DNA of 46,872 bases from a virus. The translations under genes and the position numbers were made by a program. The first letter of the stretch is position 1. Every line of letters starts with the position of its first letter. Under the pieces are notes generated by a model. It was not told the origin of the DNA. It made no database searches and saw only the letters and a program-made list of their open reading frames with translations. Positions 729 to 14,134 of the stretch are shown in pieces. The DNA is taken from positions 1-46,872 of IMG/VR virus record IMGVR_UViG_3300009447_000015, one strand, 5' to 3'.

Positions 729-814
729 CCTGACTTTGAAATAGCGTCGGAAGAGTAGACTCCGTCACACACTATAGTTAACGCCGCCAGGCGTGTATAG
801 CACTTCGCTGCGCT
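729..814 (+). ncRNA. Candidate structured early RNA
   Basis: Downstream of P2 the sequence can fold twice. CGGA 748-751 can pair with TCCG 761-764. A longer hairpin has CTATA 772-776 with TATAG 796-800 and, inside it, ACGCC 781-785 with GGCGT 790-794 around a GCCA loop. The 3' arm of the second hairpin overlaps a reverse copy of the RTGCTATACAC repeat. No open frame and no obvious T-run end are seen, so it could be a leader of the gene at 894 rather than a separate RNA. Confidence 0.3.
793..803 (-). repeat. RTGCTATACAC repeat, copy 1
   Basis: Reverse-strand copy (GTGCTATACAC read on minus), 12 bp upstream of promoter P3 and in the 3' arm of a hairpin. It is the only exact copy found on this strand. 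It matches the bacterial DnaA box TTATNCACA at most positions. Confidence 0.6.
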
Positions 815-855
815 CGACAAAAATAATACGTTCGCTACTAGATAATATATATGTA
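815..855 (+). promoter_or_regulatory. Early promoter module P3
   Basis: CGACAA at 815-820, AATAATACGT in the 20-bp gap, and GATAATATATATG from 841. It lies 48 bp before the ATG of paralogue B. The stretch before it (CACTTCGCTGCGCTCGAC) is echoed before P4 (CACTTGCGCTCAAC), so the promoter region itself seems to be a duplicated unit. Confidence 0.75.
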
Positions 856-893
856 ACTAAAAAATAATAATTAATAACTTAAATTAAATCACT

Positions 894-1124
894 ATGCAAA
901 CTCAAACTTTAAACTCAAAACGCTTTTTAATCAGAAAATCACTTATTGGCTCTAACACTATAATAAAAGTCAAATTCAAAAGTGGAAAAGAAGTAACTTA
1001 CAATCACGACGAAGCGTATAAAATTATGCAAGCGAAACTCGAAGTAATGCCTTGCTTTATTAAATATAAAAGCTATACTTCTTCAACAAGTGTTCCAGTA
1101 GTGTTAAGAGAACTTATCTCTTAA
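894..1124 (+). CDS. Hypothetical protein, early paralogue B
   Basis: A 76-residue protein, paralogue of the gene at 8-226. The shared core keeps SKRFLIRKSLIG, a central NHD with aromatic neighbours, and the C-terminal KYKSYTSSTS block. The N-terminus has four extra residues. It is preceded by promoter module P3 and followed at once by an RTGCTATACAC repeat and promoter P4. No known domain is recognised. Conservation of the Ser/Thr-rich tail in both copies suggests a shared binding function; this is inference. Confidence 0.78.
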   Translation: MQTQTLNSKRFLIRKSLIGSNTIIKVKFKSGKEVTYNHDEAYKIMQAKLEVMPCFIKYKSYTSSTSVPVVLRELIS

Positions 1125-1134
1125 TGCTATACAC
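1124..1134 (+). repeat. RTGCTATACAC repeat, copy 2
   Basis: ATGCTATACAC, starting on the last base of the stop codon of paralogue B and ending 7 bp before promoter P4. Confidence 0.65.
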
Positions 1135-1141
1135 TTGCGCT

Positions 1142-1180
1142 CAACAAAAATAATACGTACACTATAAGATAATATATTTA
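1142..1180 (+). promoter_or_regulatory. Early promoter module P4
   Basis: CAACAA at 1142-1147, AATAATACGT in the 20-bp gap, and GATAATATATTTA from 1168. The ATG at 1195 is 22 bp past GATAAT, the shortest leader of the set. Confidence 0.75.
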
Positions 1181-1194
1181 TAAAATAATTAAAC

Positions 1195-1371
1195 ATGGAA
1201 AAACTAGTACTATCAAGCAAACTATTCTCTTACGAGCAATTATTAGAGTGGGATAAGAATGATCTCGCTGAATTTATACTAAACTTCACTATGACTATGC
1301 ACGCAGAAGATAGTGAAATAGAAGTAAACGAAGAAGATATATTCGCACTAATAAAATACAGTGATCTGTAG
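1195..1371 (+). CDS. Small acidic hypothetical protein (58 aa)
   Basis: ATG at 1195 opens a 58-codon frame directly downstream of promoter P4. The N-terminal half is mixed helical sequence (SYEQLLEWDKNDLAEF). The second half is acidic (EDSEIEVNEEDIFALI). The stop codon overlaps an RTGCTATACAC repeat. No family recognised. Its private promoter and its position ahead of two hairpins suggest a single-gene transcription unit. Confidence 0.65.
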   Translation: MEKLVLSSKLFSYEQLLEWDKNDLAEFILNFTMTMHAEDSEIEVNEEDIFALIKYSDL

Positions 1372-1381
1372 TGCTATACAC
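1371..1381 (+). repeat. RTGCTATACAC repeat, copy 3
   Basis: GTGCTATACAC, starting on the last base of the stop codon of the small gene at 1195-1371, ten bases before the hairpin at 1391. Confidence 0.65.
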
Positions 1382-1390
1382 TTTTCTAGG

Positions 1391-1412
1391 GGGTGACAAT
1401 AGCCTGTTACCC
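1391..1412 (+). terminator. Hairpin after small acidic gene
   Basis: GGGTGACA (1391-1398) can pair with TGTTACCC (1405-1412), with one G-T pair, around a 6-base loop. No clear T-run follows, so it may be an RNA stability element or a weak terminator. It belongs to a 228-bp gene-free stretch (1372-1599) that holds this hairpin, a second one at 1447-1502 and promoter P5. Confidence 0.45.
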
Positions 1413-1446
1413 TACTATTTAACTAGCTAATGTCACACTTTTCTGC

Positions 1447-1502
1447 GGGGAGAATTATATTCTTGTATGGAGAGACAGAGTATAATATCCCTCTACTCTT
1501 TT
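1447..1502 (+). terminator. Second hairpin, terminator-like
   Basis: GGGGA (1447-1451) pairs with TCCCT (1488-1492), and inside it ATTATA (1454-1459) pairs with TATAAT (1481-1486), separated by a small internal loop. CTACTCTTTTC follows. Together with the hairpin at 1391 it would insulate the genes before it from promoter P5. Confidence 0.45.
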
Positions 1503-1529
1503 CAACTAATAAATAATAAACCACCTTCG

Positions 1530-1570
1530 TTACAATAATAATACGTTGTAGTGTTGATAATATAAATATA
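1530..1570 (+). promoter_or_regulatory. Early promoter module P5
   Basis: TTACAA at 1530-1535, AATAATACGT in the 20-bp gap, and GATAATATAAATA from 1556. It lies 39 bp upstream of the ATG at 1600 and probably drives the run of small genes from 1600 to 3071. Confidence 0.75.
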
Positions 1571-1599
1571 CATTAATTAATAACTTAAAATATATAACT

Positions 1600-1803
1600 A
1601 TGTCTTTAACTATTAAAACTACCAAAATTTCTAAATTACCTCTAATACGCTCAAATCGTAAGCGTTATATAGGCTTCACTGTATCTAGTTTGCCTAAAAA
1701 TTTCGCCGAAGTAGCAAAAGATTCTGCAGTTCGCGAGTGGTTTAACTACAATGGCTTAACCTTTATATCCGCTAGTTTATTATCACTAACATATATTAAA
1801 TAA
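1600..1803 (+). CDS. Basic hypothetical protein (67 aa)
   Basis: The first gene after promoter P5, in an A/T-rich start context (ATATAACTATG) shared by several neighbours. The N-terminal half is basic (KTTKISKLPLIRSNRKRY). The C-terminal half is more hydrophobic (FISASLLSLTYI) but too short and polar to be a sure membrane segment. No known family. It ends two bases before the next small gene. Confidence 0.65.
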   Translation: MSLTIKTTKISKLPLIRSNRKRYIGFTVSSLPKNFAEVAKDSAVREWFNYNGLTFISASLLSLTYIK

Positions 1804-1805
1804 CT

Positions 1806-1967
1806 ATGTCCACTACAAAACTCACCGAAACTGAGCAATTAATCAGTGATATACGCTATATATTATATAAAGCAGAAGATAATAATGCAAGCATGTTAGA
1901 AACTATAAATACTATAGAGCAAACACTAAACGCATACACTTTATCTAATAAAATAAAAAAGCTATGA
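1806..1967 (+). CDS. Small helical hypothetical protein (53 aa)
   Basis: A 53-codon frame from ATG 1806, which follows TAACT like its neighbours. The sequence looks like one or two amphipathic helices (TEQLISDIRYILYKAED, then LETINTIEQTLNAY). The stop overlaps the next start (ATGA), a sign of translational coupling. Function unknown. Confidence 0.6.
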   Translation: MSTTKLTETEQLISDIRYILYKAEDNNASMLETINTIEQTLNAYTLSNKIKKL

Positions 1968-2140
1968 GGCAATATCCTATGAGTAACGAGCAAATAATAG
2001 AATCTATAGGTAAAGTAGCTATAGCGTATGAGAATACACCATATGCTACGCCATACGAAGCATCATTAGCTATGGAAGCAATAGTTAATATACTTGAAGA
2101 AGAATTTTATAACGGATCACTAAATAATAACTATAAATAA
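1964..2140 (+). CDS. Small hypothetical protein (58 aa)
   Basis: Starts at ATG 1964, overlapping the previous stop by four bases. A second possible start lies at codon 6 (MSNEQ). The chain contains IIESIGKVAIAYENTPYATPYEASLA broken by prolines, then an acidic helix (VNILEEEF). No motif recognised. Coupled translation with the upstream gene is the main support. Confidence 0.6.
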   Translation: MRQYPMSNEQIIESIGKVAIAYENTPYATPYEASLAMEAIVNILEEEFYNGSLNNNYK

Positions 2141-2147
2141 TATAACT

Positions 2148-2309
2148 ATGACTAATCAAGAAATCGCACACAAGATCTATAATAGGTGGCAAGACAAAAG
2201 CGACTTAAAGAATTGGAAACACGACGAAGAGTTTAACTCACTACCTTTAACTAATCAAATTAAAGTACACGATATAATTAATAACTTTATTAGACAAGAT
2301 TACTTCTAA
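2148..2309 (+). CDS. Small hypothetical protein (53 aa)
   Basis: A 53-codon frame with the local TATAACTATG start context. It is rich in Trp, Asn and Lys (IYNRWQDKSDLKNWKHDEEF) and ends with a helix (VHDIINNFIRQDYF). No family recognised. Confidence 0.6.
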   Translation: MTNQEIAHKIYNRWQDKSDLKNWKHDEEFNSLPLTNQIKVHDIINNFIRQDYF

Positions 2310-2328
2310 CACTTAAAATAATATAACT

Positions 2329-2526
2329 ATGACACACGCTCAATTTGTAACTAAATTCTGCGAGATTTTAGGAGAAGATTTTTTCTTAAGCGATATGATA
2401 TGGCAAGAAGAATTATTCGAGAAACAAGAAAACTTATGTAAGCTAATATGCGATGGTGCTAATAAAGACTTGCCATTAGCAAAGTTAATAGCTAGTAAAT
2501 TTCCACTAACATTTAATATATCTTAA
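2329..2526 (+). CDS. Hypothetical protein (65 aa)
   Basis: A 65-residue protein in the TATAACTATG start context. It has two scattered cysteines and a helical pattern (FVTKFCEILGEDFFLSDMIW, then LCKLICDGAN). No signal or membrane segment is clear. It ends two bases before the next gene in the P5 gene string. Function unknown. Confidence 0.65.
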   Translation: MTHAQFVTKFCEILGEDFFLSDMIWQEELFEKQENLCKLICDGANKDLPLAKLIASKFPLTFNIS

Positions 2527-2528
2527 CT

Positions 2529-2798
2529 ATGGGAGCAACATCCTTTCACCAATCAGTACCAAAAAAGAATTACGAAAGCGCAAAGCAAGCGTTTAGAGAA
2601 CTAGTAGAAGATGCACTATATGAGCATGGCCACGATCCTTACTCAGGCACTATAGCTACATGCAGTTTATTAGGCGAAATAAAAGAGCCCGAAAGCGACG
2701 ACCACTATGATGCAGCGTTAGACGAACTACGTAAACGAGAGTGTGTATACTTTGAAACACAAGATAAATATCACTTTATAGGTTGGGCGTCATGTTAG
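2529..2798 (+). CDS. Conserved phage hypothetical protein (89 aa)
   Basis: An acidic protein opening MGATSFHQSV, followed by a helix (AFRELVEDALYEHG) and a motif HDPYSGTIATC. I recall similar small proteins from marine phage genomes, but with no known function. The C-terminus (FIGWASC) overlaps the next start by seven bases. It has His and Cys residues but no clean metal-binding pattern. Confidence 0.7.
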   Translation: MGATSFHQSVPKKNYESAKQAFRELVEDALYEHGHDPYSGTIATCSLLGEIKEPESDDHYDAALDELRKRECVYFETQDKYHFIGWASC

Positions 2799-2956
2799 CT
2801 AAAAAAATAAACATAGAAATCTGGTTCACTGGATCAGAGTATAATGATTTAATAGATACTACTATAAAAGTAGGTGATGAATACCACTCACACTACCATT
2901 TAAATAACTTAGAAGAATTAACAGAAATAATAAAAGAAATACAAGATGAAGAATAA
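2792..2956 (+). CDS. Small acidic hypothetical protein (54 aa)
   Basis: Starts at ATG 2792 inside the end of the previous gene. It contains YHSHYHL in the middle (a His-rich patch) and an acidic helical C-terminus (LEELTEIIKEIQDEE). The stop lies inside the next gene, whose ATG is 11 bases before the end. Overlaps on both sides support that it is translated. Function unknown. Confidence 0.6.
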   Translation: MLAKKINIEIWFTGSEYNDLIDTTIKVGDEYHSHYHLNNLEELTEIIKEIQDEE

Positions 2957-3071
2957 AATAACTAACGCTATGCTATACACGTGGCTATGCGTACTATATA
3001 CAGCTGCGCTCAGCGGAATACTTGGCTGCGCATATTTACTAACAGAGTTTATATTAGCAAATTTACAATAA
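2946..3071 (+). CDS. Small membrane peptide (41 aa)
   Basis: A 41-codon frame from ATG 2946, overlapping the previous gene by 11 bases. Residues 9-37 are a hydrophobic stretch (MLYTWLCVLYTAALSGILGC onward, ending LLTEFILANL), long enough to span a membrane. The N-terminus MKNKITNA is positively charged. Its 3' end overlaps the TTACAA box of promoter P6. It could be an inner-membrane effector such as a superinfection-exclusion or host-inhibition peptide; that is speculation from its form only. Confidence 0.6.
   Translation: MKNKITNAMLYTWLCVLYTAALSGILGCAYLLTEFILANLQ
2970..2980 (+). repeat. RTGCTATACAC repeat, copy 4
   Basis: ATGCTATACAC inside the 41-residue membrane peptide gene, where it reads ATG CTA TAC AC. 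It lies 83 bp upstream of promoter P6. Confidence 0.6.
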
Positions 3072-3104
3072 TAATACGTAGCACCTCAGATAATATATAT
3101 ATAA
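3063..3104 (+). promoter_or_regulatory. Early promoter module P6
   Basis: TTACAA at 3063-3068, AATAATACGT in the 20-bp gap, and GATAATATATATA from 3089. It starts inside the last codons of the membrane peptide gene and lies 30 bp before the ATG at 3124. Confidence 0.78.
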
Positions 3105-3123
3105 TAATTAAAATAATATAACT

Positions 3124-3429
3124 ATGTCTAAAGAAATTTATTTAAACAACGAAGAGCACACAGTATTAACCAAGTATCTAATAAAACATGTTACTATGTT
3201 TCCAAATGATACTAATCCTGTTATTAAAGATATAATAGCAAAACTAAAATATAGGTTTTACTTTGATCCAGACACTGTTAAAGATCACGTAGGCGTACCA
3301 TTAGCTGATAAATGGAATTTTGTCCACGATAATTGCGAGTGGGATGACATGGAAGATTTCCACAATCTATTATGGGATTTCTTATTACAAATAGAAGATA
3401 AAGAATTACGTGGATATTTAAAAGATTAA
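3124..3429 (+). CDS. Hypothetical protein (101 aa)
   Basis: First gene after promoter P6, in the TATAACTATG start context. A 101-residue acidic protein with several Trp and Phe residues (WNFVHDNCEWDDMEDFHNLLWDFL). The overall pattern is helical. No domain recognised. The two genes after it follow within two bases or overlap, so they form one unit. Confidence 0.7.
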   Translation: MSKEIYLNNEEHTVLTKYLIKHVTMFPNDTNPVIKDIIAKLKYRFYFDPDTVKDHVGVPLADKWNFVHDNCEWDDMEDFHNLLWDFLLQIEDKELRGYLKD

Positions 3430-3431
3430 TT

Positions 3432-3542
3432 ATGGAAAGTAACTGTTGTGGCGCATCGCCATGGTTTGAAACGGATATTTGCTCCGACTGCAAAGAACAC
3501 GCTGAATTTTATAACGAAAACGAAGATGAACTTATTTTTTAA
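3432..3542 (+). CDS. Small Cys-rich (zinc-ribbon-like) protein, 36 aa
   Basis: ATG at 3432, two bases after the previous stop. The peptide begins MESNCCGASPW and carries ICSDCKEH, so the cysteines form CC...CxxC plus a His, as in small zinc knuckles. The C-terminus is acidic (ENEDEL). I recall similar short proteins in marine phages. It overlaps the next gene by 17 bases. A nucleic-acid or protein-binding role is inferred from the cysteine pattern. Confidence 0.65.
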   Translation: MESNCCGASPWFETDICSDCKEHAEFYNENEDELIF

Positions 3543-3681
3543 CTCAGAACAACTAGACTCATTAATAGATGGCTTGCATTTATTAGTAGATCATAAGCGA
3601 GATACTAACGAAAAGTTAGATATGTATAAAGCTTCAGATCTATTACAAGTGCTATACACACGCAAAAACAAGATAAAATAA
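3526..3681 (+). CDS. Small hypothetical protein (51 aa)
   Basis: The frame is open from 3448, but its first part lies wholly inside the zinc-ribbon gene, so I choose ATG 3526, giving 51 residues. The chain is one long helical pattern (SEQLDSLIDGLHLLVDHKRD) with a basic C-terminus. An RTGCTATACAC repeat lies inside it. It ends two bases before the next gene. Function unknown. Confidence 0.6.
   Translation: MNLFFNSEQLDSLIDGLHLLVDHKRDTNEKLDMYKASDLLQVLYTRKNKIK
3649..3659 (+). repeat. RTGCTATACAC repeat, copy 5
   Basis: GTGCTATACAC, followed by A, inside a coding region (frame GTG CTA TAC AC). This copy extends the match to the DnaA box through its final A. Confidence 0.65.
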
Positions 3682-3683
3682 TT

Positions 3684-3914
3684 ATGGAAATAACTAAAGT
3701 AACTAAAAAAGGTAATATATACGTAACACTATCAAACGGTAAATGGGCAGGTATCTACCCTAAAACCAAGTACGTACGCTTTAAAACCAATCAAGATAAC
3801 CCATACCACCAAGGTCCATTGATCTATCAGGTAAAAAGAAAGTTCAAAGATATTAAAGAACAAATTGAATACTTATTAGCTTACGAAGAAAAGTATTGCA
3901 AAAATAATACGTAG
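3684..3914 (+). CDS. Basic hypothetical protein (76 aa)
   Basis: A lysine-rich 76-residue protein with a beta-strand-like N-terminal half (ITKVTKKGNIYVTLSNGKWAG) and an amphipathic helix near the end (FKDIKEQIEYLLAYEEKY). A small nucleic-acid-binding fold is possible but not shown. Promoter module P7 begins inside its last codons, so the next unit is transcribed separately. Function unknown. Confidence 0.68.
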   Translation: MEITKVTKKGNIYVTLSNGKWAGIYPKTKYVRFKTNQDNPYHQGPLIYQVKRKFKDIKEQIEYLLAYEEKYCKNNT

Positions 3915-3940
3915 CACTTACGATAATATATATGTATAAC
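3896..3940 (+). promoter_or_regulatory. Early promoter module P7
   Basis: TTGCAA at 3896-3901, AATAATACGT in the 20-bp gap, and GATAATATATATG from 3922. It is 31 bp before the ATG at 3958. The TTG form is the closest of the set to the TTG box known from Bacteroidota promoters. Confidence 0.78.
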
Positions 3941-3957
3941 AAATAAAAATTATAACC

Positions 3958-4146
3958 ATGAACAAGCAAATGTATCAAGAATTATCTAGCGATCTTTATG
4001 AGCTAACATGCGACTTTGTCAGCGAGCAATTATTAGAAATGCTTTACGATAAAGATTTAATCAAAGAAACAGATAATGCAGCTATGGATTTATTTAATAA
4101 AACATTAAAGCAATACTATAACACATATTTAACTAAAACTTGGTAA
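3958..4146 (+). CDS. Acidic helical hypothetical protein (62 aa)
   Basis: First gene after promoter P7. The sequence looks all-helical (YQELSSDLYELTCDFVSEQLLEML, then MDLFNKTLKQYYNTYL). No known motif. It ends one base before the next ATG, so the two are probably coupled. Confidence 0.65.
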   Translation: MNKQMYQELSSDLYELTCDFVSEQLLEMLYDKDLIKETDNAAMDLFNKTLKQYYNTYLTKTW

Positions 4147-4147
4147 C

Positions 4148-4480
4148 ATGAAAAAACTAACTAAACACGAAGCTGACTGGAAATCAGCAACACATGGCAC
4201 TCATAAAATAGGTTCATTACACGGCTATTACTACAATGATTTAATACTTGCGTTTGGTAGCCCAACTTATTCACCAGATGATTCAGGCGATGGCAAAGTT
4301 CAATTCGAATGGGTGTTTAAATTTAAAGACAACATATATACATTATATGATTGGAAAACATACAGCGAAAACTATACTAAAAACGATCTAACGACGTGGA
4401 GTATTGGCGGTAAAACAGAGCCAGCGGAATTTATATTTGCTATAACAGATAAATTACAAGAAGTATTATGCAGTTGTTAA
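4148..4480 (+). CDS. Hypothetical protein (110 aa)
   Basis: A 110-residue protein rich in aromatic residues with a likely beta pattern (VQFEWVFKFKDNIYTLYDWKTY). It ends with LCSC. It overlaps the start of the GP88-like gene by 13 bases. I do not recognise the family; the overlap suggests co-expression with the GP88-like protein. Confidence 0.68.
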   Translation: MKKLTKHEADWKSATHGTHKIGSLHGYYYNDLILAFGSPTYSPDDSGDGKVQFEWVFKFKDNIYTLYDWKTYSENYTKNDLTTWSIGGKTEPAEFIFAITDKLQEVLCSC

Positions 4481-5073
4481 CACAAAACGGTAAATTAAAA
4501 AAGACTAGTAAGCTAATGGGCTTTAAAGTTGTCAACTTTGGCTTACCAGCTTACAAAAGTATAACAGGTAGAGTCATTTGCCCTATGGCAGATGGTTGTA
4601 TTAAGTTCTGTTATGCACGTAAAGGCGCGTATATATGGGGTAATGTAAAGCCAGCGTTCGAAAAACGTTACGAGCTTAGCAAGACAGATAGCTTTGTAAG
4701 TGCTATACACGCCGAGATACAGAGCAAAAAGCCTAAGTTTGTGCGAGTACACGATAGCGGCGACTATTATTCACGTGAGTATTTAGCTAAGTGGTTTCAA
4801 ATTGCAAAGCAAAATCCACATGTAAATTTCTATAGTTATACCAACATGATCGATATGGTTAAAAAAGCTGATGTACCTAGCAATTATGACTTTATATTCA
4901 GTAACTCAGGCAAACAAGTAGATCTTATAGACAAGTCAATAGATCGTCATACAGAGATATTTAAAACTGCAGATGAATTAGTTGCTGCTGGTTATGCTAA
5001 TGCGTCAGAGAATGATCTATATGCAACCAGATGGTTTAACAAAACTAACAAAGTCGGACTAATATATCATTAA
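4468..5073 (+). CDS. GP88-like protein with a Cys cluster
   Basis: This resembles the phage 'gene product 88' (GP88) family, whose function is not known. Visible hallmarks are C38-x5-C44-x3-C48 followed by YA (CPMADGCIKFCYARKG), then a V-H-D-S-G-D-Y-Y stretch near residue 95 and the FYSYTNMIDM stretch further on. The closely spaced cysteines recall an iron-sulphur or zinc site, but the spacing is not the CxxxCxxC of radical-SAM enzymes. At 201 residues it is perhaps slightly short for the family. The start overlaps the previous gene by 13 bases. Confidence 0.7.
   Translation: MQLLTQNGKLKKTSKLMGFKVVNFGLPAYKSITGRVICPMADGCIKFCYARKGAYIWGNVKPAFEKRYELSKTDSFVSAIHAEIQSKKPKFVRVHDSGDYYSREYLAKWFQIAKQNPHVNFYSYTNMIDMVKKADVPSNYDFIFSNSGKQVDLIDKSIDRHTEIFKTADELVAAGYANASENDLYATRWFNKTNKVGLIYH
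4700..4710 (+). repeat. RTGCTATACAC repeat, copy 6
   Basis: GTGCTATACAC inside the GP88-like gene, where it is read as AGT GCT ATA CAC, a different frame from copies 4, 5 and 7. Confidence 0.6.
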
Positions 5074-5074
5074 T

Positions 5075-5173
5075 ATGAGGCCTATAGAAAAAATAATAAT
5101 GGCATGGATAATATTCAATGTAATATTGCTTGTGCTTGTAGTATTTAAATCAATTTTTAACTTAATATTTTAA
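5075..5173 (+). CDS. Small membrane peptide (32 aa)
   Basis: A 32-codon frame from ATG 5075, one base after the previous stop, and three bases before the next gene. Nearly the whole peptide after MRPIEK is hydrophobic (IIMAWIIFNVILLVLVVF), ending SIFNLIF. It would be a single-pass inner-membrane peptide. Spacing between two clear genes supports it. Function unknown. Confidence 0.58.
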   Translation: MRPIEKIIMAWIIFNVILLVLVVFKSIFNLIF

Positions 5174-5176
5174 ATT

Positions 5177-5524
5177 ATGTCACATTACAAAAACTTAGTA
5201 CTTGAAAAGTCAGGATCAACACTTGACACTGAACACGGTGGTGTTGGATATGATGTATCTTTTGAATCAATAATGACAGCAGATGGTCATGATATATATG
5301 TTGCTTTAGACCAAGCTGACTGGAAAAGTGTTATACCTGATAGAGATATATACACTCAAGCTCATTACTTGCAGCCAGAAATTGAATCTGCTATAAACTT
5401 AGGGTCTTTCATCTATGTTGATGAATATATATTAGACGAATGTGATCTTGGAGAGGATAGCGATCGTTGGGAATACTTATGGAATGAATGGTATGTAAAT
5501 AATAAAATGTCACACAAATTTTAA
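5177..5524 (+). CDS. Acidic hypothetical protein (115 aa)
   Basis: A 115-residue acidic protein. It holds LDTEHGGVGYDVSFE near the N-terminus and an acidic, aromatic C-terminal third (DEYILDECDLGEDSDRWEY). No family recognised. It lies in a tight run of genes (two bases to the next start). Small acidic proteins of this sort may mimic DNA, but this is only a suggestion. Confidence 0.7.
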   Translation: MSHYKNLVLEKSGSTLDTEHGGVGYDVSFESIMTADGHDIYVALDQADWKSVIPDRDIYTQAHYLQPEIESAINLGSFIYVDEYILDECDLGEDSDRWEYLWNEWYVNNKMSHKF

Positions 5525-5526
5525 TT

Positions 5527-5721
5527 ATGAATAGACACGTATGGGAAGGCTGGACAGTACAAGATTTTATTAATGAAGTAGAGGTAGATTTTCAAAACTG
5601 GCCACGCATTGATGATCCTGAAAAATTAAAAGACGAGATTAAAAGTTCACAACCTTACTACAAAAAGCATATACCTGAAGTATATAAACATTTTAAACTA
5701 TTAAATGAAAAGAAATTATGA
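5527..5721 (+). CDS. Hypothetical protein (64 aa)
   Basis: A 64-residue protein with a Trp-rich N-terminus (HVWEGWTVQDFI) and a charged helical C-terminus. The stop overlaps the next start (ATGA at 5718), which suggests coupled translation. No known domain. Confidence 0.66.
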   Translation: MNRHVWEGWTVQDFINEVEVDFQNWPRIDDPEKLKDEIKSSQPYYKKHIPEVYKHFKLLNEKKL

Positions 5722-5978
5722 AAACAAAAGAAAAAATGGGTTTACCAAAATGGTTCGAAGGTAAAGTATACGCTAGCGGCGATACGGTTAAAAATCCTTT
5801 TACAGGAGCAGAAGCAGAGTTAAATAACAATGAGTTATCTATGTATGATTTTATAATGGGTGCTCAATGGTTAATAGAACGAGGTCAATCCAATAGAATG
5901 ATAGACTCAGAGTTTAGAAAAGGCCTTGATTGGTTTAGGCATTCAAACGCAGAAGCTTACATGGTATTACTAGATTAA
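5718..5978 (+). CDS. Conserved phage hypothetical protein (86 aa)
   Basis: An 86-residue protein with motifs MGLPKWFEGKVY near the start, NPFTG, ELSMYDFIMGAQ in the middle and GLDWFRHSNAEAYMVLLD at the end. I recall proteins with the same layout from marine phages, always without a function. It is coupled to the upstream gene by ATGA and precedes the DnaA-like gene by ten bases. Confidence 0.72.
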   Translation: MKTKEKMGLPKWFEGKVYASGDTVKNPFTGAEAELNNNELSMYDFIMGAQWLIERGQSNRMIDSEFRKGLDWFRHSNAEAYMVLLD

Positions 5979-5988
5979 ATATAAACAT

Positions 5989-6462
5989 ATGACACCAAGA
6001 ATTACACCATCAAATAAAAAAATACTAAACTACTTTTACTATAAAATATTAGACGAAGCTGGTGAGTATTCATACAAAGTAAATACACGCAAACGTGAAT
6101 ACAAAATGTTGCGTTGGGTTTACTATAAACTATCAATGGATTACTCTACAGCTGGTTGTTCTGCAATAGCTAAAAGTATGGGTCAAGATCATGCAACTGT
6201 TTTACATAGTATTAAAAACTTTGAAAATGAATTGCCATACGAAAGAGATATAGAAGAGTTGTACAGGAAAGTAGAGAATATATATATATCTGAGGTTCAA
6301 GAGGTTAAAACTATTAACGAGATAAACGATAGGATATTAGAATTAAAAAACACTATAGCTGTACTCGAGCAAAAGAAAGCAGACATAAGTGAAAAACACA
6401 TATCTAAAAACACTGAAGAAAATAAAAGATATGAATTACAAAAACAATACGCGGCAAGCTAG
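5989..6462 (+). CDS. DnaA domain IV-like DNA-binding protein with coiled coil
   Basis: Residues 34-95 match the DnaA C-terminal (domain IV) helix-turn-helix: a basic start (RKREYKM), then the signature GQDHATVLHSIKNFE at 65-79, where the family has G-x-x-D-H-x-T-V-L-H. The residues that touch the DnaA box in bacterial DnaA (the D-H-x-T and the following His) are kept as D67, H68, T70 and H73. No AAA+ ATPase part is present. Residues 105-150 form a charged, heptad-like coiled coil (INDRILELKNTIAVLEQKK). It probably binds a DnaA-box-like site as a dimer, either to start phage replication or to redirect host DnaA/DnaN. Promoter P8 lies inside its last codons. Confidence 0.75.
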   Translation: MTPRITPSNKKILNYFYYKILDEAGEYSYKVNTRKREYKMLRWVYYKLSMDYSTAGCSAIAKSMGQDHATVLHSIKNFENELPYERDIEELYRKVENIYISEVQEVKTINEINDRILELKNTIAVLEQKKADISEKHISKNTEENKRYELQKQYAAS

Positions 6463-6475
6463 ATAATAATTATAT
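6436..6475 (+). promoter_or_regulatory. Promoter module P8 inside the DnaA-like gene
   Basis: TTACAA at 6436-6441, CAATACG in the 20-bp gap, and GATAATAATTATA from 6462. The module overlaps the last nine codons of the DnaA-like gene and lies 29 bp before the KTSC gene's ATG at 6496. The spacing is the same as in P1-P7, though the AT tail is less regular. Confidence 0.65.
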
Positions 6476-6495
6476 AACAATTAAAACAATTAACA

Positions 6496-6723
6496 ATGGA
6501 AAGAATTTTAAAAGAAAAGATCGATGTGTATTCAAGTATGGTAGACTCAGTTACATACACACCAATGAAAAAAACATTATTAGTTAAATTCAACTCAGGA
6601 TCTAAATATGTATATTCAGATGTTGATTCAGGAACGTTTGAAGGTTTAAGATCAGCAGTATCAAAAGGTGCATACTTAAATAGGAATGTAATTAGATTAT
6701 TTTCCTACAAAAAAATTAAATAA
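6496..6723 (+). CDS. KTSC domain protein
   Basis: A 75-residue protein that fits the KTSC domain (named after the lysyl-tRNA synthetase C-terminal region): strand LLVKFNSGSKYVYSDVD, a helix, then SKGAYLNRNVIR near residues 56-67. KTSC proteins are small RNA- or protein-binding folds; the phage role is not known. It is first in a unit from promoter P8 and its stop overlaps the next ATG by one base. Confidence 0.75.
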   Translation: MERILKEKIDVYSSMVDSVTYTPMKKTLLVKFNSGSKYVYSDVDSGTFEGLRSAVSKGAYLNRNVIRLFSYKKIK

Positions 6724-6953
6724 TGATAGAAACTGATTTTGATACCAAACAACGCGCGTTAGATAAAGCTAATGCTAAAGTTATTATGTCCGATATAGAT
6801 ATTAATAATACTGTTGATGACATAAAACAAAAGCGTTGGGCTGGTGTAACTAAAGAACAGTTACAAATGGTATTACAACATCAGGAACACGACGCAAAAG
6901 TTTGGAAATATATATACGCATTAATTAAAAAAGATCTTAAACAAAATGACTGA
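6723..6953 (+). CDS. Hypothetical helical protein (76 aa)
   Basis: A 76-residue charged protein that looks all-helical (TKQRALDKANAKVIMSD, then LQMVLQHQEHDAKVWKYIYALIKKD). Its start overlaps the KTSC stop by one base and its end overlaps the next start by eight. No motif recognised. Confidence 0.65.
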   Translation: MIETDFDTKQRALDKANAKVIMSDIDINNTVDDIKQKRWAGVTKEQLQMVLQHQEHDAKVWKYIYALIKKDLKQND

Positions 6954-7236
6954 ACAAGAAATGAACCAATTAGCTGACATTATAGTAGACAAAATATATG
7001 CTCGTCAAGAAGAGTTTGATAAACAGTTTATTGACAACATGCAAGAAACGTTAGGTGATGACGCGGAAGTTAGTGGTCAATATATTATATCTGAACAAGA
7101 GTTGTTAGAAATAGAACTTAAAAGACTTAACGAGCTATTGTTACGCTATGAGCAAAACGAAGACTATAGTAAAGCAGCTATATTAAACAACAAGATAAAC
7201 AAAGTTGTTAAAAAGCTTAATGATCTTAAAAAGTAA
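6946..7236 (+). CDS. Coiled-coil protein with UVR-like segment (96 aa)
   Basis: An acidic protein with two helical halves. The C-terminal half (LKRLNELLLRYEQNEDYSKA, then ILNNKINKVVKKL) resembles the UVR motif found in UvrB, UvrC and other proteins, a short two-helix hairpin used for protein contacts. The match is by pattern only. It sits in the P8 unit, two bases before the next small gene. Confidence 0.62.
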   Translation: MTEQEMNQLADIIVDKIYARQEEFDKQFIDNMQETLGDDAEVSGQYIISEQELLEIELKRLNELLLRYEQNEDYSKAAILNNKINKVVKKLNDLKK

Positions 7237-7238
7237 TT

Positions 7239-7249
7239 ATGCTATACAC
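7239..7249 (+). repeat. RTGCTATACAC repeat, copy 7
   Basis: ATGCTATACAC followed by A, whose first three bases form the start codon of the small gene at 7239. Confidence 0.65.
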
Positions 7250-7382
7250 AATGCGTATAATTGACGGCAGCGATACCCACGATTACTTAATTAATGGTGT
7301 TGTTGCTGATCACGTGCAAGATGCGGCAGTTGAAAGAATATTAAAAGACTATAACAAAAATGTTATAATAGAATTTTTATGA
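7239..7382 (+). CDS. Small hypothetical protein (47 aa)
   Basis: A 47-codon frame whose ATG is the beginning of an RTGCTATACAC repeat. A second ATG at codon 5 (MRIIDGSDTHDYLING) could be the true start, as the MLYT prefix is fixed by the repeat. The stop overlaps the next start (ATGA at 7379). The chain is acidic with a helix VQDAAVERILKDY. Function unknown. Confidence 0.6.
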   Translation: MLYTMRIIDGSDTHDYLINGVVADHVQDAAVERILKDYNKNVIIEFL

Positions 7383-7645
7383 AAACACCAATGCAAGAAA
7401 TGATTGAGTTTATGAAAGAAAAACTCAAAGAAGATACTTTGCACTATAATACACACCCTTCTAACGGTGGCTTGATAGCTATTAGAATGTCTCAATTTTA
7501 TTTAGAAATAGCAGAATCAATGCTTGAGAAAGAAAAAGAAGTTATGTGTGAGTTTCAATCAATAGGTCAAAACAGAGATTTTTGGGTAAACTATTACGAT
7601 AACGAACAGTGTTTTGACCAAACCTTTAACACCAAAGAGATATGA
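7379..7645 (+). CDS. Hypothetical protein (88 aa)
   Basis: An 88-residue mixed-charge protein: helices MQEMIEFMKEKLKED and MSQFYLEIAESMLEKEKEV, joined by a GGLIAIR turn, then an aromatic C-terminus (FWVNYYDNEQCFDQTF). Start overlaps the upstream stop; the end overlaps the next start by four bases. Family unknown. Confidence 0.68.
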   Translation: MKTPMQEMIEFMKEKLKEDTLHYNTHPSNGGLIAIRMSQFYLEIAESMLEKEKEVMCEFQSIGQNRDFWVNYYDNEQCFDQTFNTKEI

Positions 7646-7809
7646 AAAAACAACCTTACAGAATAACAATAGAACAGTACGAATATAAGTATTCAGTAGA
7701 AGTAGACCATTCAGATATAGACTTTACAGAGTATGTAGACCTGTTAAGGCAAATATCTTTAGCAGCATCTTGGAATACAAAACAAGTAAAGGAATTTTTT
7801 GATGAGTAA
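7642..7809 (+). CDS. Conserved small hypothetical protein (55 aa)
   Basis: A 55-codon frame from ATG 7642. Layout: PYRITIEQYEYKYSVEVDHS, then DIDFTEYVDLLRQI, then SWNTKQVKEFF. The beta-beta-helix pattern is one I recall from marine flavobacterial phages. It overlaps both neighbours by a few bases (the next ATG is 7802). Function unknown. Confidence 0.66.
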   Translation: MKKQPYRITIEQYEYKYSVEVDHSDIDFTEYVDLLRQISLAASWNTKQVKEFFDE

Positions 7810-8083
7810 AAAAAACAATATGAAAGAACAAGATTTAATAGATTTAGGGTTTAAAAAATCATATGTAACTGATTTATACCCAGAACATAAAGACTCAGAT
7901 CTAAAACCTTATTACTATTACACATATAATATTACAAATGAATTATGTTTAATATCTAGTGATAACGGAGAAGCTAAAAAAAATGGCTGGGGTGTAGAAA
8001 TGTTTGATTACGATAATATTGAATTTACCAGTAAAGAAGACATTGAAAAACTTATTAGTTTAATTGAAAAGAATAAATCATGA
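7802..8083 (+). CDS. Hypothetical protein (93 aa)
   Basis: The frame can be extended one codon to a TTG at 7799, but ATG 7802 overlaps the upstream stop in the same way as its neighbours, so I choose it. The protein has a Tyr-rich middle (KPYYYYTYNI), a region LISSDNGEAKKNGWGVEMF, and a helical C-terminus. It may be a small alpha/beta fold; no family recognised. It overlaps the next ATG by four bases. Confidence 0.66.
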   Translation: MSKKNNMKEQDLIDLGFKKSYVTDLYPEHKDSDLKPYYYYTYNITNELCLISSDNGEAKKNGWGVEMFDYDNIEFTSKEDIEKLISLIEKNKS

Positions 8084-8445
8084 AAACATTAATAGTAAGT
8101 ATAGTAGCATGCGTAACAGCAACTGTTTACAATGCGGTGCCAGGTCAAACAGATGATACACCAAACATAACAGCAACGGGTTTTGTTATTGATTTAGATA
8201 ACCCTAAAAAGCATAGAATAGTAGCTGTATCAAGAGATCTTGAAAAAATAGGTTTTACTATGGGTAAAACAATTTGCGTAGAGAATGCTGGACGTATGAA
8301 TGGCATTTGGTATATTCGTGATCGCATGAATAAACGTTGGACTAAAAAAATTGATTTTTTGGTTAACAAAAAAGTAAAATATGGAAAATGGAATAATGTT
8401 TCCATTAGATTAATAAACAGTCACAGTGTGACAATAGGTAGTTAA
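8080..8445 (+). CDS. Secreted 3D/RlpA-like domain protein
   Basis: A 121-residue protein with an N-terminal hydrophobic segment (LIVSIVACVTATVY), likely a signal peptide, followed by a 3D-domain pattern: VTATVYNAVPGQTDDTPNIT near the start, then AVSRDLEKIGFTMGKTI, and GIWYIRDRMNKRWTKKIDF with the Asp residues of the domain. 3D domains form a double-psi barrel in MltA- and RlpA-type lytic transglycosylases and cut or bind peptidoglycan. A role in host wall modification is likely; enzymatic activity is not shown. It is expressed from the early strand, apart from the late lysis genes. Confidence 0.68.
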   Translation: MKTLIVSIVACVTATVYNAVPGQTDDTPNITATGFVIDLDNPKKHRIVAVSRDLEKIGFTMGKTICVENAGRMNGIWYIRDRMNKRWTKKIDFLVNKKVKYGKWNNVSIRLINSHSVTIGS

Positions 8446-8465
8446 TATAAAGGGGTAATAGGCTA

Positions 8466-9119
8466 ATGTCATACGAACGTCGTCTCGATTATTTACATCG
8501 AAACAGAATACTTTACAGAAGGTTGCCAGTTAAAGACAAGCCAACTTCAACATATGATTGGGGTTGGTTTTATGAAGACGGTACCAGAGAGTGTTATGAT
8601 CTTTTTAGAAGTAAAGCTAAGATCAACACCTACAAATCTTTAAAGTGGCATTTATTAGTTCTATGGTATCTTAACCCAAAACTTGATCCTGATAATTTTT
8701 TAAATTTATCTAAATTTATATGCAATATTAAAAATGGATTTGTTACATTTACAATAAATGATGACTTGTTAAATAAAATCATATACGAAATAAGTATGTG
8801 TGACCTAGAACAAGATCCATCTAATAAGACCCGTAAAGTTATATTTAATTATAATTGTAAACTAGAATTGTCAGACAAACTAAGTATCGTAGGACAACTC
8901 GTAGGTAGAAGCAAAAGAATTACCGAGTCTGACATCTACGATGTTATGCTATACATAAACGACTGCGGGAATAAAATAACAGTAGCTAATTTAGCTGAAC
9001 AATTAAATTGTACACCAAGAACCATATACCGTAATATGACCAATGAACTCAAAAAAGAGAAGGAACTATTAAACAACGGATATGAAAAAGTACAACATTC
9101 AGAACTACGTACGATATAA
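8466..9119 (+). CDS. HTH protein, putative transcription regulator
   Basis: A 217-residue protein with a basic N-terminus and a C-terminal helix-turn-helix: residues about 169-196 read KITVANLAEQLNCTPRTIYR, a classic turn with the A-x-x-L-x-x-x-x-R pattern. The N-terminal 150 residues match nothing I know. Its end overlaps the sigma-factor gene by 38 bases, so the two are co-transcribed and may work together, for example as activator and sigma. A near-copy of the RTGCTATACAC repeat is at 8946-8956. Confidence 0.62.
   Translation: MSYERRLDYLHRNRILYRRLPVKDKPTSTYDWGWFYEDGTRECYDLFRSKAKINTYKSLKWHLLVLWYLNPKLDPDNFLNLSKFICNIKNGFVTFTINDDLLNKIIYEISMCDLEQDPSNKTRKVIFNYNCKLELSDKLSIVGQLVGRSKRITESDIYDVMLYINDCGNKITVANLAEQLNCTPRTIYRNMTNELKKEKELLNNGYEKVQHSELRTI
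8946..8956 (+). repeat. Near-copy of the RTGCTATACAC repeat
   Basis: ATGCTATACAT differs from the repeat only in its last base. It lies inside the HTH gene. A second such near-copy is at 33282-33292 in the late half. Confidence 0.4.
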
Positions 9120-9846
9120 AGAAGATGTAAAGTCTTCAATTGAACGTGTCGGCGAAAAACCATTTAACGAGTACACTAGAGACGAGCTTATAATTAAGTT
9201 TTTACCTTTAGTAGAAAACATAGCAAGGAAGTTTTCAACAGCTCAACAAGCTTCCGGTGTTATGGATATTACAGATTTAATACAGGACGGTAGTTTGGGA
9301 CTGATCAAAGCTGTTGACAAAATAATATGGGAAACAATAGAAAACTCAGAAGACGAGGAAAAAACATTAAAGTCTTTCCTGTCTAAAAGAATAAAAGGAG
9401 CCATTAGAAGAGCCATAGACATAAACAGGGGAGATATTAGAATACCAGAGCATAAACTAAATGAAATTAGGAAAGACAATGGTAAAGACAAAAAAATGGT
9501 TGCAATGTTTTTTAATTCCATATTCCTTAGTATTGACGAGCAAATAAATGATGATGACGACGATAATACAATGCACCAAATACCTGATCAGTCTGAACCA
9601 TATAACATTGGTTTATTAAATTTATATCTAACAAGTCTATTAAAAAAGTTTCTTAATAATAGAGAGTTTGAAGTACTAAGATTAAGTTATGGATTAAATT
9701 GTGATAAACACTCTGCAAATCAAATAGCAGAGATATTAGGCATCGAAGGTCCTAGCGCTTATGTTAGAATATCTGAGATAAAAAAGCAAGCTGTAGAGAA
9801 GTTAATTGATAATGTAGAACCATCGCAAGTGATTGACTATCTGTAG
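9082..9846 (+). CDS. Sigma-70 family factor
   Basis: A 254-residue sigma factor. Region 2 is at about 33-120: ELIIKFLPLVENIARKF, DITDLIQDGSLGLIKAVD, then SFLSKRIKGAIRRAI, the -10 binding helix, followed by GDIRIPEH as in region 2.4/3. Region 4 is at about 192-243 (REFEVLRLSYGL, ANQIAEILG, YVRISEIKKQAVEKL), the -35 binding HTH. An acidic insertion (SEDEEK) lies between 2.2 and 2.3 and an Asp run at 158-161. It most likely redirects host RNA polymerase to phage promoters; whether these are the TTRCAA/GATAAT modules or late ones is open. Confidence 0.85.
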   Translation: MKKYNIQNYVRYKEDVKSSIERVGEKPFNEYTRDELIIKFLPLVENIARKFSTAQQASGVMDITDLIQDGSLGLIKAVDKIIWETIENSEDEEKTLKSFLSKRIKGAIRRAIDINRGDIRIPEHKLNEIRKDNGKDKKMVAMFFNSIFLSIDEQINDDDDDNTMHQIPDQSEPYNIGLLNLYLTSLLKKFLNNREFEVLRLSYGLNCDKHSANQIAEILGIEGPSAYVRISEIKKQAVEKLIDNVEPSQVIDYL

Positions 9847-9894
9847 ATTAAGGCAAAAATATGTAATTATAATAATAACTAAATTCCTTTAAAA

Positions 9895-10449
9895 ATGAAA
9901 GAGACATTAACCATTTATCAAAAATTAAGCAAAATCCAAAAAGAGTTTAAAGCTAAAAAAAGTAGGTACAATTCTTTTGGTAAGTACAACTTTAGATCAG
10001 CTGAAGATATACTTGAAGCATTAAAACCATTTAACGAAAAGTACAATGTATTATTTACTGTTGATGAGCAACTTGTAAATATAGATGGTATGCCTATTAT
10101 AGAATCAACTGCTACTATTATGGATTCACAAGGTGGTATGTCTATAGCTGCTAAGTCTATAGTTGGTGTTGATTTAGCTCAAAAAGGTATGCAAGTACCA
10201 CAGCAGTTCGGTAGTGCTTCCAGTTATGCAAAGAAATATTCTCTTGGTAATTTACTTTTAATAGATGACACGCAAGATAGTGATGCAACTAATGATCACA
10301 GTGGTAGAACTTACGCCGCCAAGGTTGCTATTACTAAAGACCAATTAACTAAAGCTAAAGAATACGTTAAATCAGGTGGAAACATAGATGCTATTAAATC
10401 TAAGTATACACTTACAGCTTCACAAGTAAAAGAACTAAGTACATTATAA
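9895..10449 (+). CDS. erf: Erf-type single-strand annealing protein
   Basis: A 184-residue recombinase of the Erf family: KYNFRSAEDILEALKP near residue 29 and FGSASSYAKKYSLGNLLLIDDTQDSD around 102-127 are the two Erf signatures. Such proteins anneal complementary ssDNA and bind ssDNA as rings. The C-terminal part (KDQLTKAKEYVKSGG) looks like the linker to a small helical end. It is followed, with a one-base overlap, by an exonuclease gene, the usual annealase/exonuclease pair for recombination-dependent replication. Confidence 0.88.
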   Translation: MKETLTIYQKLSKIQKEFKAKKSRYNSFGKYNFRSAEDILEALKPFNEKYNVLFTVDEQLVNIDGMPIIESTATIMDSQGGMSIAAKSIVGVDLAQKGMQVPQQFGSASSYAKKYSLGNLLLIDDTQDSDATNDHSGRTYAAKVAITKDQLTKAKEYVKSGGNIDAIKSKYTLTASQVKELSTL

Positions 10450-11180
10450 TGAAAAAAAAAGAGGTATTAAAAAAACTTGAAAACGACGAAGACTATTACG
10501 GTGAATTTGGTAAAAAATACCTAAGCAACTCAGATATATCTACGCTACTTACGAATCCTTTATTACTTGGCGAAAGACAACCTATGATAAGTGCTTTTCT
10601 TATTGGTGGTTATTTTCACACAGCTATATTAGAGCCAGAAAAACTAGGTAAGTATAAAATTATAGATGTTAATAGTAGGAATAACAAAGAGTATAGAGAG
10701 CTTGAAGATCCAGAGGTATATTTACTTCAAAAAGAAGTTGATCAAATAGAATTAATGACTGGTAAAATGCTCAATAATGATATATGTAAAGATCTTATTA
10801 GAAGCGTTGGCAACGAATATGAAGTACCAGGTATTAAAGAGATACATGGTGAGATGTGGAAAGGTAAAGCTGATATTATAAACCACAATCAGAAACTAGT
10901 TGTTGACCTTAAGACTAGTGCAGACATATCTAAGTTTAGATACTCAGCTAAGAAATACAACTACGATAGTCAAGCTTATATATATAGCCAACTATTTGGT
11001 TATGAAATGATATTTATAGTGATAGATAAAAACACATTGCAATTAGGTATATTTGATTGCTCAGACGCGTTTTTAAGATCAGGAGAAGATAAAGTTTTAA
11101 AAGCAATCGATGCTTATAGGCTTTTTTTTAAATCAAAGGATTTCGATCCAGAACAATATTTTTTAAATCAAACACTTTAA
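10449..11180 (+). CDS. PD-(D/E)XK exonuclease, RecE/YqaJ-like
   Basis: A 243-residue nuclease. The active-site pattern is seen from about residue 139: GKADII with the first Asp, then VVDLKTSA giving D-x-K, then YDSQAYIYSQL with the conserved Q-x-x-x-Y. GGYFHTAILEPEKL near 53-66 is typical of RecE-type or PDDEXK_1 phage exonucleases. It would resect dsDNA ends to feed ssDNA to the Erf protein just upstream. Stop is ten bases from the SSB-like gene. Confidence 0.82.
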   Translation: MKKKEVLKKLENDEDYYGEFGKKYLSNSDISTLLTNPLLLGERQPMISAFLIGGYFHTAILEPEKLGKYKIIDVNSRNNKEYRELEDPEVYLLQKEVDQIELMTGKMLNNDICKDLIRSVGNEYEVPGIKEIHGEMWKGKADIINHNQKLVVDLKTSADISKFRYSAKKYNYDSQAYIYSQLFGYEMIFIVIDKNTLQLGIFDCSDAFLRSGEDKVLKAIDAYRLFFKSKDFDPEQYFLNQTL

Positions 11181-11190
11181 CAATTAAATT

Positions 11191-11541
11191 ATGGCAACAA
11201 AAATTTCAGTGTCAATCGACGCAGACAAAGCAAGAGAATTATTATCGAACAGATCTTACAAAGACAAGTCAGGTAATGAAATAGCAATTAAGGAAATTAA
11301 ATTTGATCTTATTGAGATGAAACCAGAATCTCAAAAAGTAGTTTATGATCATGAGAAATTTCAACTAGTAAAAACTCATTTTGCTATTAAACAACAAACA
11401 CAAGAAGAAAGACAAAATAAAGCGGAGTCTTTATTTGTAGGTGAAGGAGTTACTCAAGTTTGGAAAAACGAAGCTGGATCAGCTACAAGTTTTCAAGCGG
11501 CGCCAACAGCAGCACAAGTAGCAGATGATTTACCTTTTTAA
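11191..11541 (+). CDS. Single-strand DNA-binding protein-like
   Basis: A 116-residue protein placed between exonuclease and primase-helicase. The N-terminal 80 residues look like an OB-type beta protein (ISVSIDADKAREL, then AIKEIKFDLIEM and VVYDHEKFQLVKTHFAI). The C-terminus is Ala/Gln-rich and ends DDLPF, the acidic-aromatic tip of bacterial SSB that binds partner proteins. The combination supports an SSB role; I cannot place it in a named family. The tip could dock host replication proteins. Confidence 0.68.
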   Translation: MATKISVSIDADKARELLSNRSYKDKSGNEIAIKEIKFDLIEMKPESQKVVYDHEKFQLVKTHFAIKQQTQEERQNKAESLFVGEGVTQVWKNEAGSATSFQAAPTAAQVADDLPF

Positions 11542-11551
11542 TATAAAATAA

Positions 11552-13270: not shown

Positions 13271-13281
13271 AAAAAGACCCA

Positions 13282-13509
13282 ATGGGTCAATACATTTATA
13301 GTGATGAAGAATTTGAAGCTTATAGCTGGTGCATTAAAAACAGTATACGTATATCACCTATAGCTAAAGACGAAACCAACTGGTTTATAGAAATTACAAT
13401 TAACAACAAAACAAACAGATCCCCTGAAACCTACAAAAAAGTAGTTATATGGGAGAAATTATTTGAGTATTATCTTTATTATTATGGAAAATATAAAAAC
13501 AAATTTTAA
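13282..13509 (+). CDS. Hypothetical protein (75 aa)
   Basis: The frame is open from a TTG at 13258 inside the primase-helicase end, but ATG 13282 (MGQYIYSDEEFEAY) is preferred as it lies after the primase stop. The protein is rich in Tyr and Trp with the pattern WCIKNSIRISP, NWFIEITINNK and a C-terminal LFEYYLYYYGKYKNKF. I recall similar proteins next to marine phage primases, with no function. It overlaps the next gene by 26 bases. Confidence 0.66.
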   Translation: MGQYIYSDEEFEAYSWCIKNSIRISPIAKDETNWFIEITINNKTNRSPETYKKVVIWEKLFEYYLYYYGKYKNKF

Positions 13510-14134
13510 AAACGCATCAGAAGCATTTGATTACTTTAATCAAAAAATAAGGACAGATGGTGTTGAATTTGCTGGTACTAAAGCTTTATTTAATGTAGGT
13601 TTTACTTTGGAATATCCTAAAAATATTTCAATAGCAAATGAAGAAAGAAACTTTAACGAAGAGTATGCTGAAGCTGAATGGCAATGGTATTTATCTGGAG
13701 ATCCAAGTTTGTCAAAGCTAAAAGAGATATACGGTAAAGTACCACCTATATGGGAAAAAATGCAAGACTCAGAAGGTAAAGTAAGATCAAATTACGGTTG
13801 GCAGTGGACGAGAAACGGTCAACTCGATTATGCTATACACACTTTGCGCGGTAATAATCAAACGCGTCAATCAGCAATTTCAATTTACGATGGCAAAGAA
13901 AACGACACGTATCAAACAGACACGCCTTGTACTTATGCTGTTCAGTTTACGATATTAAACGAAAGACTCAATATGTCTGTCTACATGCGTTCTAATGATC
14001 TCTGGTACGGCTTTTGCAACGATCAATATTGTTTCTCAAAACTACAGCAATTGGTTGCTAGAGAGCTTAATTTGCCAGTTGGTACATATTATCACCACGC
14101 ACACAATTTACACCTTTATAACAATAAATTATGA
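13484..14134 (+). CDS. Thymidylate synthase / deoxypyrimidine hydroxymethylase homologue
   Basis: The frame opens at a TTG (13463), but ATG 13484 gives 216 residues. The thymidylate synthase fold is clear: EWQWYLSGD (about 65-73), RSNYGWQWTR (101-110), TRQSAISIYD, the catalytic TPC with C149, YMRSNDLWYGF (R169, S170, D172) and YYHHAHNLHLY near the end, where TS has H-x-Y. After the G, TS has L-P-F-N; here it is F-C-N-D, so the base-recognition Asn may be an Asp (D180). In T4 dCMP hydroxymethylase an Asp sits at that point and favours dCMP. It therefore could be a dTMP maker or a dCMP/dUMP hydroxymethylase for modified DNA. An RTGCTATACAC repeat lies inside. Confidence 0.8.
   Translation: MENIKTNFKNASEAFDYFNQKIRTDGVEFAGTKALFNVGFTLEYPKNISIANEERNFNEEYAEAEWQWYLSGDPSLSKLKEIYGKVPPIWEKMQDSEGKVRSNYGWQWTRNGQLDYAIHTLRGNNQTRQSAISIYDGKENDTYQTDTPCTYAVQFTILNERLNMSVYMRSNDLWYGFCNDQYCFSKLQQLVARELNLPVGTYYHHAHNLHLYNNKL
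13830..13840 (+). repeat. RTGCTATACAC repeat, copy 8
   Basis: ATGCTATACAC followed by A, inside the thymidylate synthase-like gene (frame TAT GCT ATA CAC). It is the rightmost exact copy. Confidence 0.6.

Follow-up and report, generated by a model that had tools for sequence, protein, structure and literature searches.

The window, meaning the whole stretch of DNA that was analysed (46,872 bases, an entire viral record), comes from a marine phage of the Bacteroidetes type. Its early module encodes a sigma factor, a helix-turn-helix (HTH) protein, an Erf annealing protein, an exonuclease, a primase-helicase, and a thymidylate synthase, and includes a gene whose product corresponds to the DNA-binding domain (domain IV) of the replication initiator DnaA (hereafter the DnaA-IV protein; Table 1). 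No exact terminal repeat was found in the window. A close relative on a 67 kb viral contig, which holds a 94% identical copy of the DnaA-IV protein, shares the layout of the window and is terminally redundant, with both of its ends matching window 37.2-38.1 kb; the full genome is therefore about 66 kb, so that the window, falling short by about 19 kb, represents about 70% of the phage genome as gauged from this relative. The part missing from the window contains, in the relative, a gene for a 518-aa protein that by eye is GroEL-like (L259, about 13979-15532; G001 53979-55532). For the PolA family, the reported lack of a DNA polymerase extends beyond the window: no PolA polymerase was found in the 67 kb relative or in 14 further ones.

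The gene adjoining the DnaA-IV gene encodes a KTSC-domain protein, and this family was present near the DnaA-IV gene in all 16 of the lineage loci examined, sometimes overlapping it (e.g., L169 8381-8593; L018 4951-5184). The early region also carries a promoter-like repeat (ACAANAATAATACG, a gap of ~10 bases, and GATAATATATA), mostly located between genes, with one copy (6430-6477) extending across the end of the DnaA-IV gene on its 3' side. This repeat is possibly read by the phage sigma factor.

Table 1. Features of the window discussed in the text (equivalent residues are those of E. coli DnaA).
Feature	Position	Strand	Basis or remark
Stand-alone DnaA domain IV-like gene	5989..6462	+	ORF, 157 aa plus stop; profile, model, Foldseek
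Basic loop, residues 33-36 (TRKR); R34 = R399 (minor-groove reader), R36 = R401	6085..6096	+	Family alignment, 1J1V alignment, PMC5742627
Helix-turn-helix core, residues 36-81	6094..6231	+	AlphaFold2 pLDDT about 89-96 by block; Foldseek 1J1V TMt 0.84, rmsd 1.5
Recognition helix, residues 68-81, HATVLHSIKNFENE; H68 = H434, A69 = T435, T70 = T436, H73 = H439	6190..6231	+	Family conservation; HATVLH also in Flavobacteriaceae DnaA
C-terminal single helix, residues 86-156, predicted coiled coil, presumed dimerisation arm	6244..6456	+	Model; heptad test
KTSC-domain gene adjoining DnaA-IV gene	6496..6723	+	Pfam KTSC E 1.5e-16
Phage sigma factor	9082-9846		
Primase-helicase	11552-13270		
Promoter-like repeat copies	268-305, 688-725, 809-856, 1136-1183, 1524-1571, 3057-3104, 3890-3937, 6430-6477		
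TGCTATACAC motif, candidate site	793..802	-	
TGCTATACAC motif, candidate site	1125..1134	+	
TGCTATACAC motif, candidate site	1372..1381	+	
TGCTATACAC motif, candidate site	2971..2980	+	
TGCTATACAC motif, candidate site	3650..3659	+	
TGCTATACAC motif, candidate site	4701..4710	+	Nearest upstream of DnaA-IV gene
TGCTATACAC motif, candidate site	7240..7249	+	Nearest downstream of DnaA-IV gene
TGCTATACAC motif, candidate site	13831..13840	+	

The original prediction attributed a GxDHxTVLH signature (GQDHATVLH, residues 65-73) and the basic segment preceding it to the DNA-binding domain of DnaA, and profile, fold, and residue tests concur. Searched alone, the window protein matches the Bac_DnaA_C profile over residues 32-76 (E 5.7e-5) at 23.5 bits, which is under the Pfam gathering cut-off of 31.5 for this profile. 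That cut-off is a curation threshold for single sequences, and the profile, fold, and residue tests at the family level count for more than the low individual score. The relatives gathered comprised annotated phages, 80 loci that share a related primase-helicase, and 80 drawn from at least 308 that a profile scan confirmed; 51 diverse members made up the family alignment used for the profile and residue tests. At the family level the domain match is unambiguous, with Bac_DnaA_C matched by all 51 members (best E 7.7e-16). The family profile found the E. coli DnaA domain IV/DNA complex 1J1V at E 4.2e-14, and the chains under the E limit of 0.01 in this structure search were exclusively DnaA. Comparison of the family with domain IV of Flavobacteriaceae DnaA using hhalign (natural DnaA genes, 89-99% identical to an initial Flavobacterium DnaA query) gave a probability of 99.3%. 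Neither the AAA+ domain III, already thought to be missing, nor domain I is present in the 157-aa protein, and the match to TIGR00362 is confined to the last 69 positions of that profile (367-435; 22.1 versus 343.9 bits). The window protein is thus very likely a stand-alone DnaA domain IV. It shares its fold and main DNA-reading residues with DnaA domain IV (PF08299, Bac_DnaA_C; E. coli 1J1V, M. tuberculosis 3PVP), but lacks domains I-II and the AAA+ domain III, carries a C-terminal coiled coil instead, and is one residue shorter ahead of the recognition helix.

An AlphaFold2 model built on the 51-member alignment (mean pLDDT 89.9) contains the domain IV HTH, the absence of which from a structural model would have counted against the original prediction, with helices at residues 9-24, 36-52, 57-63, and 68-81 followed by one helix spanning 86-156. 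The top solved structures in Foldseek were all DnaA DNA-binding domains (3PVP, 8BTG, 1J1V, and 1L8Q), each with a probability of 1.00 and with modest E-values (best 0.009), a finding that can probably be explained by the long helix having no counterpart in the matched structures. The coiled coil proposed for the tail is borne out both by this single modelled helix and by a heptad test, in which a/d hydrophobicity in the window protein was 0.875 compared with 0.56 after shuffling, none of 100 shuffles reaching the observed value; the heptad signal across the family is much weaker. The coiled coil probably makes the DnaA-IV protein dimeric.

The residues with which DnaA reads its box are also present, as had been claimed. 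In E. coli DnaA, TnCACA is read in the major groove by the helix formed by residues 434-451 and TTA in the minor groove by R399, and the substitutions R399A and T435M are binding-defective (review, PMC5742627). Positions equivalent to R399, R401, R407, H434, and V437 are conserved in the DnaA-IV family (the R401 and R407 equivalences being based on alignment to 1J1V): R34 (R399), R42 (R407), I60, H68 (H434), and V71 are invariant in the 51 members, and R36 (R401) and A69 (T435) are conserved in at least 90% of them. Alanine at the T435 position is shared by the window protein and Flavobacteriaceae DnaA, as is the string HATVLH. Judging from this fold and these residues, it is highly probable that the window protein binds DNA sequence-specifically.

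Bacteroidetes-type phages commonly carry stand-alone DnaA-IV proteins, the profile scan having found at least 308 matching stretches in viral contigs; in 10 flavobacterial genomes each genome's own DnaA was the sole match, with no further DnaA-IV protein. Within the lineage of the window, the gene has a patchy distribution. Of 50 relatives identified by way of the primase-helicase, 13 carry it and 37 keep the same primase-helicase without it; many of these 37 are near-complete (58-71 kb), although absence is not certain record by record because some of the 50 records are fragments. Relaxed thresholds uncovered no hidden DnaA-IV homologue in the gene-less loci. On the primase tree, presence of the gene requires 8 changes (gains or losses), at least 7 of them on well-supported branches, and most close relatives with a 78-83% identical primase-helicase lack it. 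Such patchiness among close relatives makes a core replication initiator unlikely and argues for an accessory role. Outside the lineage (loci among L094-L173), the gene usually follows a PD-(D/E)XK nuclease gene and lies just ahead of the terminase, with the start of TerL no more than 1.1 kb downstream in 14 of the 30 loci that have at least 1.2 kb of sequence.

DnaA-box-like repeats had been reported from the same region, and this holds for one word but not for the boxes themselves. The classical box TTATNCACA occurs once in the window (3.3 expected) and CTATACACA with one mismatch 20 times (14.8 expected), neither being enriched; likewise, classical boxes are not enriched in the phages mumin, Harreka, and Nekkels, or in 39 other DnaA-IV loci pooled (16 versus 28.5 expected). 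The word TGCTATACAC, of which CTATACACA forms part, is strongly enriched. All 8 of its copies in the window fall within the first 14 kb (793-13840), 7 of them on the plus strand and most co-oriented with early transcription, and they are scattered over 13 kb rather than clustered; the window also has no cluster of DnaA boxes. The most over-represented 9-mers of the window are GCTATACAC and TGCTATACA (the latter 10 versus 0.8 expected), and each of the 8 occurrences of CTATACAC is directly preceded by TG. By hand comparison, 7 of the 8 sites recur at the corresponding place in the 67 kb relative. Across 80 lineage loci the word occurs 143 times (4.2 expected), a count that is inflated because part of it consists of same-place sites in related genes; after deduplication, 111 of 131 sites run with the primase (111:20). 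The variants TGCTATACAT and TGCTATACGC are likewise enriched in relatives, other one-base variants being mostly rare, and TGCTATAC[AG][CT] is a lineage-wide, strand-biased word (window 793-13840; relatives L014-L093, L111, L137, and L169). The sites occupy many genes, all reading frames, and intergenic stretches, which rules out a mere conserved peptide, although most same-strand sites inside ORFs (71 of 94) share a single frame. In the primase gene of some relatives, the word supplies the codons for Ala-Ile-His, at a place where the primase encoded in the window differs. A Chi-like or host-wide word was rejected, given 26 occurrences versus 34 for the control in 12 Flavobacteriaceae genomes and no enrichment in 296 Bacteroidota genomes. 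An association with start codons was also rejected (0 of 119 sites in an ORF-based count); the window site at 7240 overlaps the ATG of a 47-aa ORF that is just below the length limit of that count.

Whether this word is the target of the DnaA-IV protein is about an even question, the connection being weakly suggested. Site density per 10 kb is 1.20 in gene carriers and 0.54 in non-carriers (Mann-Whitney p 3.6e-5, uncorrected for kinship), and 8 of the 10 positions in TGCTATACAC agree with those of the extended DnaA box, TGTTATCCAC. At a density threshold of 1.0, the five independent contrasts run about 4:0 toward carriers, and five such pairs are too few for the kinship-corrected association to attain p 0.05. 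The chances are equally balanced that TGCTATAC[AG][CT] belongs to another phage or host factor and that the DnaA-IV protein has its target elsewhere, a reading that concerns the motif only and is compatible with every role of the protein. Gene-less relatives carry the motif (e.g., 8 sites in G011 and 7 in G008), DnaA-IV phages outside the lineage lack it, and it stays the same with VLH as with VIN in the recognition helix; its presence in the former and absence from the latter phages make the motif-protein link weak. In 47 loci that extend 7.3 kb or more upstream of the primase, motif density correlates most strongly with the lack of a ligase-like gene and with possession of the KTSC gene, and these may simply mark a clade. 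Motif-rich phages tend to lack the former gene, which by eye resembles one for an ATP-dependent DNA ligase (Mann-Whitney p 2e-8, uncorrected for kinship).

The original prediction offered two roles for the protein, marking the phage origin or competing with host DnaA. As a lambda O-like initiator, the protein would bind repeats at the phage origin and recruit the phage primase-helicase, and it shares the early module with that enzyme, the Erf annealing protein, and the exonuclease; in addition, one relative weakly matches a PHROG named replication initiation protein. However, the absence of the gene from so many relatives that retain the same primase-helicase, together with the lack of a dense box cluster beside it, tells against an origin mark, and such a role now appears improbable. 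The likeness to lambda O-type initiators would lie in a DNA-binding module without an ATPase, but the window gene is not conserved with the replication genes. A competitor would occupy host DnaA boxes (at oriC and the dnaA promoter), so that the host could not initiate and its replisome would become available to the phage. The recognition residues equal those of Flavobacteriaceae DnaA, the lack of PolA in the lineage suggests a probable reliance on host polymerase, the phage shows no enrichment of TTATNCACA, as expected for a host target, and the gene is optional. The placement ahead of the terminase in other phages fits less well, and DnaA domain IV alone binds DNA more weakly than cooperative DnaA. 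Competition may apply, though with a fairly low probability. The adjoining terminase genes outside the lineage would also suit a protein that marks the pac or cos region for packaging, but in the window lineage the gene belongs to the early module and lies well away from the terminase-side genes on the opposite strand, and this role is very doubtful.

The reading that we favour, though at slightly less than an even chance, is that the DnaA-IV protein is an optional, sequence-specific regulator of phage genes rather than an ATP-driven initiator. Its HTH would read a short, asymmetric, DnaA-box-like site without an ATPase, the long coiled coil joined to it would probably dimerise, and the protein could act as a repressor or activator occupying several sites in the early region. 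What was computed directly is the domain IV fold, the conserved DNA-reading residues, the lack of an AAA+ domain, the long C-terminal helix, and the patchy presence; DNA binding, dimerisation, and regulation are what these features would imply. A regulator is favoured by the patchy gene, by the repeated, strand-biased motif of the early region, and by an early module that also encodes a sigma factor and an HTH protein. The many asymmetric sites, predominantly co-oriented in both the window and the lineage and in the window all early, are as would be expected for a regulator acting at multiple sites. Phages often keep regulators of (late-gene) transcription just before the terminase (e.g., ArpU and RinA), so the pre-terminase placement outside the lineage likewise favours a regulatory role. 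Weighing against a regulator are the occurrence of the motif in gene-less relatives, its absence outside the lineage, its indifference to VLH or VIN, and the weak heptad signal of the family, and no promoter or operator linked to the DnaA-IV protein was found. In a more specific and rather unlikely version, the lineage would have converted the DnaA reading domain to a regulator that dimerises, lacks an ATPase, and recognises a diverged box of its own, TGCTATAC[AG][CT], set mostly in a fixed direction in early coding and non-coding DNA; this would amount to stoperator-like control derived from part of a replication initiator. The stoperator repressors of mycobacteriophages, with many asymmetric, mostly co-oriented sites across a transcribed region, offer a likeness in the arrangement of sites, the site-protein link being putative here.

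Annotated phage relatives (Flavobacterium phages mumin gp28 and tooticki; Olleya phage Harreka_1 gp24; Cellulophaga phages phi19:1 and phi19:3; Nonlabens phage P12024L; Tenacibaculum phage Gundel_1) resemble the window protein in being stand-alone DnaA-IV proteins of similar size with a helical tail, but are only about 15-30% identical to it, and those checked (mumin, Harreka, and Nekkels) lack TGCTATACAC. Viral structure models of such proteins are named 'Chromosomal replication initiator, DnaA C-terminal' (uncultured Caudovirales phages), 'DnaA protein' (phi19:1 and phi19:3), or 'Bacterial helix-turn-helix protein' (tooticki), and searches of the literature turned up no study of the function of stand-alone DnaA-IV proteins in phages. 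The window protein is a new member of a large, already annotated, and apparently uncharacterised family; since such proteins are already annotated, the case will not surprise a specialist, and the unexplained motif is its more curious part. Binding to host DnaA boxes would provide a simple means of stopping host replication, while binding to phage sites would define a class of regulator derived from a replication initiator, and the TGCTATAC[AG][CT] repeat provides a concrete DNA probe for the target of stand-alone DnaA-IV proteins. In some phages there is a second DnaA-IV-like protein, which is shorter at 95-97 aa (L096, L158, L120, L123, L131, and L135 near 400-1190).
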